Positions 28,501 to 33,271 of a DNA stretch of 64,000 nucleotides are shown here, one piece after another. The DNA comes from Cloeon dipterum (Eukaryota > Arthropoda > Insecta > Ephemeroptera > Baetidae), in assembly GCF_949628265.1 (NCBI RefSeq), contig NC_088790.1, positions 16,248,545 through 16,312,544 of the forward strand. Reading direction: 5' to 3'. A model generated the notes under the pieces. That model did no database searches. It saw nothing but the letters and a program-made list of their open reading frames with translations, and was not told the DNA's origin. A program made the translations under genes and the position numbers. Within the stretch, counting starts at the first letter, position 1; each line of letters opens with the position of its first letter.

Positions 28501-31500
28501 TATTGAAAATAACAAAAATAAATTACAAATCTCTTAAAAGTGTTGTTTATTGCCAATTAAATTAACAATTTCGCCTTCCTGCAGGCTGGGAACAATGTCC
28601 GCGACGATGTAGTCAGCTCCACAATCCAACTCATTTCCGACTCGCCAAGGGAGCTGCAAGCGAGCATCACTGCTGACTTCTGGCGCGAACTCTGCGTGGA
28701 CAAAATAGACAGGCAACCTTTGGTGCAAGTCGCCATGTGGTCTTTGGGTGAATACGGGGACATCATGCTCTACGACTCGGAGTTCGCCTCAAAGGTTTGT
28801 AATCAACAACAGATCATTTGGTTGAGCAAAAATTAAATTATTCCTCTTTCAGCTGACCGAGGAGGAGATCCTGGACGTGTACCAGCGTATGCTCTGGGCA
28901 CCGCAAAACAACATAGTCACTAAACAGTACGCCCTCCTTTCGCTGGTCAAACTCAGCACGCGGTTCAAAAGCGCCTTGCAGAGGGTAAGACTAGTTTGTT
29001 TTGGTAGCTTTGGAATAATTTTTATTTTTGATGTTTTTAATCTAGTTTATTATTAATTAGGGCAAAAAGATATTTTTCTTTTGCTATTAATGTGACTCCT
29101 TAATCATAAATTAATTTGCGTCATGTGGTTTTTTAATTTTGGATATATCCGGAAAATAGCTGTCCTTTTTTAAATTCATTTTTGAGCCAATTGAAATCGG
29201 AAAACCCCCTTTTTTAATTGTTTTCCAACAAAAATCCCAGGGAAACAAAATAATAAACACTACCAATTTAATTTTATCATCCTGTGCTATACATTTATTA
29301 GTAGTCCGAAAACTTAGTCAAAACAAGTCATTTTAGTTTCTAGAAATGCAATAAAATTATCGTACGTTCAATCGTAAAAGGATTTCCCCCTCTTTTTTAA
29401 TATTCTGCCATTGCTTTTAGAAACAAGTATTGATTGTCTGGAAAAACCATTTCTTGCTTCATTTTTATCGTCCATGGAATTGTGCAAACCCTGAGACATA
29501 ATTGATTGTTACACATTTTTTAACTCTTAAGAACAACTTGGTATGTCAGTGACAATCTTTGCAATATCGTTTTACTGATGGATATATAAAAATTTGTTTT
29601 TTATCCCTACAAAATATTTCCTGTGGTGTAACGTAAACTTTTCCGGGCCTGTTTGTAATTTTTTCAAACAATTTCTCAGTTTGCTACTAAATTTTTTAAA
29701 TCTTGGCGTCCTCACACATTTTACAGATTAACAGGATGGTAGAGCAATTTGGCTCCCACCTGCATATCGAAATGCAGCAGCGAGGGGTGGAGTTCACGGC
29801 ACTGTTCTCGCAATACGACCATTTGCGGCCGAGCCTGCTGGAGCGCATGCCACCCATTCCGAACACGAAGCCCAAAATGGACGAGATGGGCGGCGATTCG
29901 CCAGAGATGGAAAGTCTCGTGATTGACCAGGTGGTGGAACAGCAAGACTCGAGCAACGCCCTGCTCCTCCTTCTGGGAACTTCAACAGCAGAGGCGGCGA
30001 TTTTGCCCGAAACCAACATCAACTCAATCGAGAACAACCAAGACTTGCTAGATCTGCTGGGAGGCCTCGACGGCCCCTCGCTCAACAATGTAGACATTCC
30101 CAAAGCACCCATCCACAGTAAGTTATATATCTGGACGGTCAACTATCGAATTTTGGACACCATCCAATAGGTTCTAACAAAAAATCTTGAAAACTAATGT
30201 GGATGGACAATTTTTTCTTATTTATGAAATGAAGGGGAAAAGTGGTATGAGTTTGGCTTTATAATTCCGCAGCTTTGAGTGCTAGATCAAAAATATTGGC
30301 GAGCAGTTATTTGCGAGATTGGAGGTCGATTGGACGCGATTTTTCAGCGTTGAAATTTTTAGGTGGCACTCATATTTGCTTAAAGTTCTTGTTAATAGAT
30401 GGTGAAATTTCAAATTTGAAGCTCGGGAATGGGGGCGTTCTCTATTTTTTCGGTATCTCAAAAATACCCAAAAAACGAATTCTGTTAATGAACTCTAAAC
30501 TGCAACTCTTGACTGCGTTGAGGTATCACCTTGAAATTTTCACTGCCTAACCTAGTTTTTAATCCTGAACAACTTTTGCATTTACAAAAAATTCGCAGGT
30601 AAAAGGTCAAGGTCACCTTTCGCGACCTTTTTTTGAAAATTCAAAATTAAGGGATGATAGCCCCCTACGATTTTTTTGGGGTTAAGGGCTGAAATGTAGC
30701 CCGTGAAATTCTGCACAAGTACACCAAGTTTCATAGGTGCAATCGCGATGCTTTTGCTGCAATTTGAATTTGAAGTTTGAAAACCTGCTCGAGGCCGCTT
30801 GACCGCGCATGCACTCAGAGCGGCGATTTCGCCTCGCGTTCGTAAAGTTGATGTTTTTCGCATTTCACTTGCTTAGAAACACCAAGAGGGCCTAGGGTAG
30901 ACCAAGGAAGGTCAAAATCGACCTTCAGGGTCTGTCCCTGACGTGACCCTGAGATACAAAATTTCGAAAATTTCCAATTTCATCGAACTTGGTGTCTTTT
31001 CATAGGTTTTCACCACTGTACAGCTCAAATATAGAGCCAAAATTGCCGAATTACAATCCTGAAACCGGTTCTTGAAGTAATTGTGGTAGCCATTCATCCA
31101 GACGTGATGTGCAAAATGGTCAAAATTTTAAAATCTTAAATTTATGAAAAGATGCTTCTATTTTGCACACATGAAGTTCATAATATGTGTTGATAATAAA
31201 GGATCTTATGCTTAATACTATGAAAAAATGTTATTAAATGCACTGGCAAATAAGCTACTTTTAAAAACCAAATATTTTTGTTTCCTTTCTTTTTATAAAA
31301 AAAATTAAACATGTAATTTAATTGTTATTTGCTCTAAATAAATTTTTTAAACTTTTTTTTAAAAACAATCGTTAATTTTTAACACTCAATATGAACTTTG
31401 TGTGTACAAAACAGAAGAATCATATCAAAACTTAAAGATTTCAAAATTTGACCATTTTGCACATCACGTCTGGATGAATGGCTACCACAATTATTTCAAG

Positions 31501-33271
31501 AACCGGTTTCAGGATTGTAATTCGGCAATTTTGGCTCTATATTTGAGCTGTACAGTGGTGAAAACCTATGAAAAGACACCAAGTTCGATGAAATTGGAAA
31601 TTTTCGAAATTTTGTATCTCAGGGTCACGTCAGGGACAGGCCCTGAAGGTCGATTTCGACCTTCCTTGGTCTACCCTAGGCCCTCTTGGTGTTTCTAAGC
31701 AAGTGAAATGCGAAAAACATCAACTTTACGAACGCGAGGCGAAATCGCCGCTCTGAGTGCATGCGCGGTCAAGCGGCCTCGAGCAGGTTTTCAAACTTCA
31801 AATTCAAATTGCAGCAAAAGTATCGCGATTGCACCTATGAAACTTGGTTTTCTTGTGCAGAATTTCACGGGCTACATTTCAGCCCTTAATCCCAAAAAAA
31901 TCGTAGGGGGCTATCATCCCTTAATTTTGAATTTTCAAAAAAAGGTCGCGAAAGGTGACCTTGACCTTTTACCTGCGAATTTTTTGTAAATGCAAAAGTT
32001 GTTCAGGATTAAAAACTAGGTTAGGCAGTGAAAATTTCAAGGTGATACCTCAACGCAGTCAAGAGTTGCAGTTTAGAGTTCATTAACAGAATTCGTTTTT
32101 TGGGTATTTTTGAGATACCGAAAAAATAGAGAACGCCCCCATTCCCGAGCTTCAAATTTGAAATTTCACCATCTATTAACAAGTACTTTAAGCAAATATG
32201 AGTGCCACCTAAAAATTTCAACGCTGAAAAATCGCGTCCAATCGACCTCCAATCTCGCAAATAACTGCTCTGGCAAATTTGGAAAGCTGATGAAATTGGT
32301 AATTTTATATCTACTTTAAAATATTTTCTCGCTTAAGACGTTTTAAAAATCGACTCATATTTACTAGTAAATTATGCAACCTGAAATTTTTGAAAATAGC
32401 CTACATAAAGCTTGATTTTATGAAAACTTTATGAAATCTTAAAATTTAAAAGAAATTTCTATAGCCGGTACGTTTCTGCTCGCGATTTACCAAGAACAGT
32501 TTTCTTTTTTAAATATATGCTTGTAAAATCAGTAAGTTGAACAATAGCTTATAAATCTCACATCATTTGATATAATCTCGCTCAGCAGATTCCAATAATG
32601 TAAAGTGTATTGAAATCCAACTACTTTTCACAAGATTTTAGCCCTTTTAAATGACAGAGATGTGGATTAAGCAAACTATTTGTAATGTCAACTCTATCTT
32701 TGATAAATTGTCATCCTTAAAAGCAAAAACGACTATGAAAAATCTATAAATTTCACCTTGTTAGTTCAATATGGCTCATTGTGTGTGCCTCTGACATTTT
32801 CCAGAACCATCAATGACTGTATTTGAAAAAGACAACCTGAAAATCAACTTTGAGGTTGAGCAGACCATCGACGGCGGTTACGAGATCCTCATGACAGCCT
32901 ACAACTTCAGCAACAACCAGACTCTAGACGATTTTGTTCTCCAAGCGGCAGTTCCCAAGGTTGGTGCTTGTCATTAAAGTCCTAATGAAAAATAAACAAC
33001 CTCTTTCTCCACTTTGTAGACATTCGTGCTAAAAATGCAGCCAGCGTCTTCAACGCAGCTTCCACCCACTGGCGAAATAACCCAAGTCATCAGTATTAAA
33101 AATCCAACAAACGTAAGTACCAGTTGAAAAAACTTGAGCCGTGAGACAAATGCTGAAAGTTTCTCTGCTTGACAGGGCGTTCTTCGCATGAGACTGAGAA
33201 TTTGTTACTCTGTGAATGGACAGACAGTCACAGAGCAAGCTGAAGTCAATCAGTTTTCTCCGACCTCTTGA
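25567..33271 (+). CDS. AP-1gamma: AP-1 complex subunit gamma (gamma-adaptin)
   Basis: Complete gene of 11 coding exons: 25567-25940, 26632-26870, 26932-27185, 27245-27399, 27676-27988, 28585-28794, 28853-28984, 29727-30117, 32805-32959, 33020-33112 and 33176-33271; 803 residues. It is the large subunit of the AP-1 clathrin adaptor, sorting cargo between trans-Golgi network and endosomes. The trunk (1 to about 600) is nearly identical to animal gamma-adaptins: [95 protein letters not shown] and [18 protein letters not shown]. The hinge contains the clathrin-box-like repeat QDLLDLLGG (about 664-672). The ear domain (about 690-803) has [24 protein letters not shown] and [12 protein letters not shown] 25567 matches the insect N-terminus. 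Intron 8 (30118-32804) contains a large foldback element. Confidence 0.98.
29235..29350. repeat. Degenerate interspersed repeat in AP-1 gamma intron 7
   Basis: Partner of the 3680-3930 repeat in the GT92 intron: the same short words in the same order with one block missing. Found by eye; age and class unknown. Confidence 0.35.
30301..32270. mobile_element. Foldback (long inverted repeat) transposable element
   Basis: A 1,970-bp element made of two arms of about 840 bp (30301-31138 and 31428-32270) that are reverse complements with only scattered mismatches, separated by an AT-rich spacer of about 290 bp. The outer ends are GAGCAGTTATTTGCGAG on the left and its exact complement on the right. 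The 4-bp sequence TGGC immediately flanks both ends (30297-30300 and 32271-32274), as expected of a target-site duplication. Open frames in the arms (for example 30582-30863 minus and 31708-31989 plus) are mirror images of each other, have no recognisable domain, and no transposase is present, so it is non-autonomous. It lies in AP-1 gamma intron 8, inserted into an older dispersed repeat. The TSD length would fit groups with 4-bp duplications such as Chapaev or Sola, but the class is unproven. Confidence 0.9.

Follow-up and report, generated by a model that had tools for sequence, protein, structure and literature searches.

Does a long palindrome in an intron of an insect gene represent a mobile element, a rearrangement made in place or a source of hairpin RNA, and does the near identity of its arms tell when it arrived? 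These questions are raised by a 64,000-nucleotide stretch of the Cloeon dipterum genome (contig NC_088790.1, positions 16,248,545 to 16,312,544 of the forward strand; the whole stretch is hereafter called the window), in which an inverted-repeat element of 1970 bp occupies positions 30301-32270. Our analysis indicates, with a probability that we place at about 0.93, that the element is a copy of a recently active, multicopy, non-autonomous foldback DNA transposon family, here named F1, which would be moved in trans and whose arms copy each other. F1 is a foldback family that is new as far as the literature searched, and not a new kind of element.

Structure of the element and evidence for mobility

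The element is composed of a left arm (30301..31143, + strand), a long terminal inverted repeat of 843 nt with the terminus GAGCAGTTATTTGCGAG, of a loop or middle domain of 284 nt with 21.8% G+C (31144..31427), and of a right arm of 843 nt (31428..32270, - strand), which repeats the left arm in inverted orientation at 98.7% identity, so that long inverted arms make up most of the element around a middle domain. Inverted-repeat detection in the window reported the arms as 98% complementary and 284 nt apart, and arm-against-arm alignment gave 98.69% identity over 842 aligned positions with 1 gap. An earlier note, made from the letters of this locus alone, had described two long, nearly identical arms with exact 17-bp outer ends and a 4-bp direct repeat at both borders; arms and border repeat were confirmed, and the outer ends are indeed exact, but their length had been understated, as the outermost 86 bp match exactly between the arms. 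The border repeat is TGGC (30297..30300 on the left and 32271..32274 on the right), and the flanking match stops at these 4 bp, the fifth base pair being different.

The genome searched was a 190.1-Mb assembly of 10 contigs. The 20-bp terminus was found at 167 places with at most two mismatches (85 forward and 82 reverse), as against 0 for the reversed control, and an arm used as query, a search that the earlier note had proposed, located at least 41 places (40 of 522 candidates scored). The best 30 loop matches (L009-L038, with L009 being the window copy) were taken as the copy sample; 26 of these are complete and four (L028, L032, L033, and L034) are incomplete. An exact 4-bp direct repeat borders 21 of the 26 complete copies, while chance alone would give such a repeat with a probability of about 0.006 for each copy, A+T being taken as 68%. 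The duplicated bases differ among copies (TGGC, ATGT, AGCT, GTCT, AGGG, ACCG, and others), and hence there is no evident target consensus. Pairing, for which 150 of the 167 termini were used (one listed end, C2:31544961 of copy L035, lay outside this set), yielded 66 pairs, 54 of them 1955-1985 bp long, 10 of 822-1905 bp and two of more than 3.8 kb; the only pairs above 2 kb are the one at C3:15006093, which is a nested insertion, and the one at C4:21870976, where the locus is rearranged.

A related empty site is present in the window itself. When the flanks of the element are joined with a single TGGC, they match positions 14429..14542 (+ strand), a diverged copy of the dispersed repeat hosting the insertion, at 84 of 114 positions and without a gap across the junction; TGCC stands at the target position. 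Given this ungapped alignment, the target was most likely an older repeat, of which 4 bp were duplicated when the element inserted. This repeat is dispersed, with 40 matches for 42 candidates in the genome, source included. The dispersed repeat as such (14429-14542, and 30241-30300 joined to 32275-32328) is old, its copies being mostly 71-88% identical. The 167 termini, the duplications at 21 of 26 copies and the related empty site together lead us to regard F1 as mobile, its dispersed copies carrying target-site duplications, and the earlier proposal of a foldback insertion with a 4-bp target duplication holds. F1 would have moved by cut-and-paste with 4-bp staggered cuts, and a transposase encoded elsewhere would recognise the conserved ends of the arms; in a divergence profile of 76 arms, chosen for having the F1 end, the outer 40 bp form the least divergent 40-nt bin (0.008 vs. 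0.036 overall).

It should be considered that palindromes of such size are generally prone to misassembly and that one locus (L080/L105/L115, described below) resembles a palindromic rearrangement in place. The window element could be an inverted duplication made where it stands, or an assembly error, with the flanking TGGC there by chance. Such an origin is extremely improbable in view of the dozens of copies which have the same ends in different flanks, the 4-bp duplications and the related empty site. A single assembly error is excluded, since the terminus recurs in both orientations (control 0) and the flanks of the copies read differ, apart from those of L035 and L037, which are the same.

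Age of the insertions and copying between arms

The transposon family F1 has moved very recently, as can be deduced from copies L015 (C2:34.7 Mb) and L016 (C2:22.0 Mb), which are 100% identical over 1973 bp, lie approximately 12.7 Mb apart and have different duplications (CAAT and GTCT); L019 and L022 show 99.9% and 99.85% identity to this pair. Among the 26, the closest to the window copy is L012, at 97.5% identity, and the window copy is therefore not one of the newest. The earlier note had read the near identity of the arms as a sign of recent insertion or of conversion. The trees described below bear out conversion, in episodic form, and the inference of recent insertion does not follow; arm identity fails as a clock when a copy with arms this similar reaches only 97.5% identity to any relative in the sample, and two other copies are entirely alike.

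A tree was built from the 52 arms of the 26 complete elements, in which left and right labels assume that loops never flipped. A palindrome formed once, with arms that never exchanged sequence, would place all arms left of the loop in one clade. Forcing same-side arms together lowered the log-likelihood by 442.6 (p-AU 3.4e-45), and the 52-arm tree required 11 label changes. In seven of the 26 elements (the window copy L009, L023, L026, L027, L029, L036, and L038) the two arms of one element are sisters with a bootstrap of at least 97, a result which is independent of the assumption on loop orientation. It follows from this tree that sequence has been exchanged from arm to arm; repeated fresh formation of palindromes from a single arm would leave the same trace. 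Because of the sister arms and the rejection of the tree without exchange, we take arm identity to record the last arm-to-arm copying and not the age of the insertion. Since the arms can pair, one arm would repeatedly template the other, either by intra-element conversion or by strand switching at a hairpin, and the arms would thus remain alike regardless of insertion age. Inversion of the loop is not claimed, as the loops of a clonal group of seven copies keep their orientation relative to the arms. F1 is also a warning that arm identity is unsafe for dating palindromic elements.

Several observations weigh against this interpretation of F1. Five of the 26 complete copies have no exact 4-bp repeat; the duplication of L013 is of 5 bp, L010 and L021 agree at three of four positions, and L035 and L037, which have no border repeat, represent one duplicated locus. 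Among four shorter paired copies a 4-bp repeat was seen by eye in three, L111/L112 being without. The clonal group (L013, L015, L016, L018, L019, L020, and L022) keeps a fixed difference between its arms, which means that arm copying is episodic and not constant. Finally, no transposase-bearing relative of F1 was found, so that mobilisation in trans is inferred. The earlier note had held that copies with other borders and no 4-bp duplication would speak against its reading; most copies are not of this kind, the five without an exact repeat being the exception. As regards L035 and L037, these two F1 copies sit on different contigs, within a host region of 3.4 kb that is duplicated at 95.9% identity, and they apparently share their insertion through this host duplication.

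Structural variants and broken copies

All 18 of the 150 termini which remained unpaired were read. Five (L042, L069, L071, L077, and L117) are solo arms with the break at position 760-773 of the arm, others break at position 359 (L070), at 838 (L118), near 747 (L082) or 35 nt into the loop (L068), and further breaks were found after the loop (L072) and 24-25 nt into the right arm (L075 and L081). A diverged or shortened mate accounts for L073, L079, L119, and L049, and L080 and L032/L061 are rearranged. Copy L078 has no loop, and its centre lies at 773-780; the solo-arm breaks close to this centre would be consistent with a loop-less palindrome breaking at its tip.

The two copies broken just inside the right arm, L075 and L081, share a continuation of 217 nt at 98.6% identity (L081:1249-1465; in L075 after 1255). 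This module has at least 40 matches elsewhere in the genome at 84-100% identity (40 of 131 candidates scored), and its outer 20-mer, GAGCGTATTCCAAGACAGGA, occurs at 126 places (control 0), those listed being mostly unpaired. The left flank of L081, TAGTT, is found again behind the tail end ...CGCTC, and no such repeat is seen in L075. It is possible that the module is the asymmetric terminus of a different, recently active element that became joined to F1. A segment of the window at 50925-51235 is 66-70% similar to a 458-nt self-inverted repeat which adjoins the broken F1 copy of L068.

Search for a transposase and comparison with known systems

No transposase turned up in the F1 copies examined, and the family is for this reason taken as non-autonomous; a search for a transposase-bearing relative, as the earlier note had suggested, found none among these copies. 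The longest stop-to-stop frame of the window element is at most 111 aa, and five of its longest frames (two of which overrun its ends) had no Pfam match below E 0.1, a weak match with E 0.18 to the tail of a retrotransposon polyprotein being seen among them. The tails beyond ten unpaired termini (0.7-2.4 kb; L042 and L068 outside this set), were scanned with Pfam, the longest frame of each being cut into pieces of at most 90 aa. Forkhead was matched in L118 and DM9 in L077, two tails had weak matches (0.04) and the other six had none, with no transposase among them. The first 13 bases of F1 with a different continuation occur at 6 places (control 3), one of which is a diverged F1 end. Viral contigs gave one 17-mer match for F1, judged to be chance without computation, and none for F2, a second palindromic family described below.

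The size of the duplication was compared with that of known superfamilies. Tc1/mariner, piggyBac, and Kolobok have a fixed TA or TTAA target and were rejected, as the duplications of F1 differ among copies. Sola, Chapaev, Ginger, and Academ agree with F1 in a duplication of approximately 4 bp, although length alone assigns no family; 4 bp is the duplication size of Chapaev, Ginger, and some Academ elements. The Sola2 target duplication is an AT-rich 4 bp (PMC3627910). Most described foldbacks are placed in the Mutator superfamily (PMC4079207). Mutator duplications are of about 8-11 bp (8-10 bp in PMC4079207) and those of the P superfamily element Galileo of 7-8 bp (PMC4168063), while those of F1 (and, for Mutator, of F2) are of 4 bp; both candidates were rejected, the 4-bp duplication making F1 a poor fit to Mutator and to Galileo/P. 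The remark of the earlier note that terminal motif and duplication length do not immediately point to a common insect superfamily agrees with this as regards the duplication, 4 bp being unlike the lengths in the superfamilies to which described foldbacks are usually assigned. In the open-licence subset of the literature that was searched, no paper was recognised in which a foldback has 4-bp duplications.

In overall architecture F1 resembles Tc4 of Caenorhabditis elegans, a palindrome close to perfect, in which arms of several hundred bp enclose a short middle; the target duplication of Tc4 differs from that of F1. The arms of Galileo of Drosophila are long and inverted, its structure varies, many of its copies are defective, and its ends are more conserved than the rest, all as in F1, but its duplications have the consensus GTANTAC, whereas F1 has no evident consensus (PMC4168063); sequence exchange among Galileo copies has been proposed (PMC3573991). 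Tetris of Drosophila virilis is likewise a non-autonomous foldback for which no transposase-bearing copy was found, and possible homogenisation of its repeats has been discussed; it differs in its 8-10-bp duplications, internal tandem repeats and proposed membership in Mutator (PMC4079207). Tm1 of Meloidogyne (Mutator/foldback) shares with F1 the foldback arms, non-autonomous groups and the lack of a clear target consensus, and is unlike it in that its duplications are mostly of 9 bp, its arms consist of 13-15-bp tandem repeats and some of its copies have a Mutator-like transposase (PMC3169594). Tandem subrepeats of the FB or Tetris kind are not found in the F1 arms, in which there were only five arrays of 2-3.3 copies with scores of 31-38; such subrepeats are not required of the foldback structural class.

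A P-superfamily transposase of the same genome could also be imagined to move F1 in the manner of Galileo, a foldback-like P element (PMC4168063). The genome has 18 matches to P-type RNaseH domain/transposases (and 2 to DUF7869), and two of three loci fetched (L120-L122), namely L121 (C5:29887800-29894200) and L122 (C2:36933600-36940000), have P-superfamily matches in DNA which is 98.2% identical over 5.3 kb, with inverted repeats in L121 of at least 231 bp at 99.6%. Nevertheless, no link of F1 to a P-type transposase was found: none of the three loci showed a relation of note to the F1 or F2 arms, the first 800 bases of L121 are no more similar to these arms than are shuffles, and F1 duplications are of 4 bp and not of the 7-8 bp of Galileo (PMC4168063), all of which renders this origin very unlikely. 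L121 has two short AT-rich matches to the F1 loop (E 1e-5 and 4e-4). L121 possibly represents a Galileo-like long-arm P element in an insect genome.

Host gene and predicted RNA hairpin

As the earlier note had stated, the element is intronic; it lies entirely within an intron of 2687 nt (30118..32804, + strand), GT-AG by sequence, of the AP-1 complex gamma adaptin gene. In Pfam, coding pieces upstream of the element hit Adaptin_N, and the ear domain of adaptins was matched just downstream of it; the gene's best solved-structure match is AP-1 gamma-1, and the exon piece directly upstream of the element matched no Pfam family. Folded alone, the element has a predicted energy of -1622.8 kcal/mol, whereas three mononucleotide shuffles gave about -459 to -479, with 834 of the 843 left-arm bases predicted to pair in register and a longest perfect helix of 332 bp. 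The nuclear transcript could therefore fold into a hairpin of about 840 bp, and double-stranded RNA from the element is thermodynamically plausible. The earlier note had gone further and suggested siRNA production by Dicer and extrusion of a cruciform by the DNA; the present calculation covers the folding energy of the RNA.

The strength of this predicted fold, together with the location in a gene, could be taken to suggest a retained hairpin-RNA gene, the Dicer siRNAs of which would serve a host or self-silencing role, with selection for pairing keeping the arms alike. We consider this unlikely, since the transposon structure already explains the pairing of the arms, copies are present at many sites, and homogenisation of arms at those other sites needs no host role. 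The element in the AP-1 gamma gene would most likely be a passive passenger, spliced out together with the intron.

Related palindromic families

A second abundant family, F2, is a near-perfect palindrome of approximately 1.7 kb with at least 77 matches in the genome (40 of 1828 candidates scored). Its ends are GTGTGTGTTCGGGAGTC (or GTTCAGGAGTC) and so differ from those of F1, and a 4-bp duplication was seen by eye in all ten copies read at both ends. F1 71-410 is collinear with F2 72-406 (score 57, the highest of 200 dinucleotide shuffles being 26), which means that the two palindromes are homologous over about 340 bp of their arms while the rest has diverged. The abundance of two related palindromic families, together with the clear trace of arm-to-arm copying, is the most surprising outcome of this work. 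F1 supplies, within a single insect genome that is well assembled, many palindromes which are nearly identical and moved recently. Two questions can thereby be put to the test, namely which transposase is behind foldbacks with 4-bp duplications and how long inverted arms remain similar.

Both families meet at the rearranged locus L080, in which F1 1-535 is followed by an F2 palindrome of 1.68 kb (L080:631-2311, i.e., C4:21872640-21874320) and by F1 535-1. The composite palindrome (L115/L080/L105, C4:21870976-21874852) is about 2.75 kb long, 98% self-complementary, and adjoins a solo F1 arm. The F2 part is flanked by CTCT and AGAG, which are reverse complements and no direct repeat, and the outer F1 flanks have no 4-bp repeat in common. 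The simplest reading of this one locus would be that an inverted copy of one half overwrote the other half in place.

The arms of both families contain overlapping AGGTCA repeats (AGGTCAAGGTCA in F1 and AGGTCAAAGGTCAAGGTCA in F2), AGGTCA being the nuclear-receptor half-site. There are three AGGTCA per arm in each family where about 0.3 are expected, a number reached by 2 and 0 of 500 shuffles, respectively. The window holds only two AGGTCAAGGTCA repeats, one in each arm of the element: the direct repeat of the left arm (30604..30615, + strand) and its mirror copy in the right arm (31956..31967, - strand). Conservation of the motif among F1 copies is unremarkable, as its 21 columns average 0.016 and the neighbourhood 0.017-0.018. 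Common descent of the arms explains the motif without any function, and it is for these two reasons a lead only. A bolder proposal, which we consider improbable, is that F1 and F2 form a foldback lineage of a superfamily so far undescribed as foldback-forming, and that their arms are functional platforms with an AGGTCA array bound by a host nuclear receptor or a shared transposase and kept duplicated by hairpin copying.

An AGGTCA array is also present in another inverted-repeat family with different ends. This family, F3, was found as an inverted-repeat insertion inside an F1 arm (L084:56-1870, in C3:15007500-15010000), with ends near TTTGCGCGGGT and 8 AGGTCA sites where 0.43 are expected. 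Its target duplication is seemingly not of 4 bp, TCGCCG being seen by eye on both sides. In comparison with 60 shuffles, F3 scored 41 vs. 23 against F2 on one strand (23 vs. 29 on the other), and against F1 it remained near the shuffle range (26 vs. 30, and 25 vs. 23 on the other strand). Apart from the F1 element, a scan of the window for inverted repeats (seed 12, arms within 6 kb and of at least 40 nt) listed a single further one, with arms of 49 nt at 13586-13634 and 13715-13763 which are 90% complementary and 80 nt apart.

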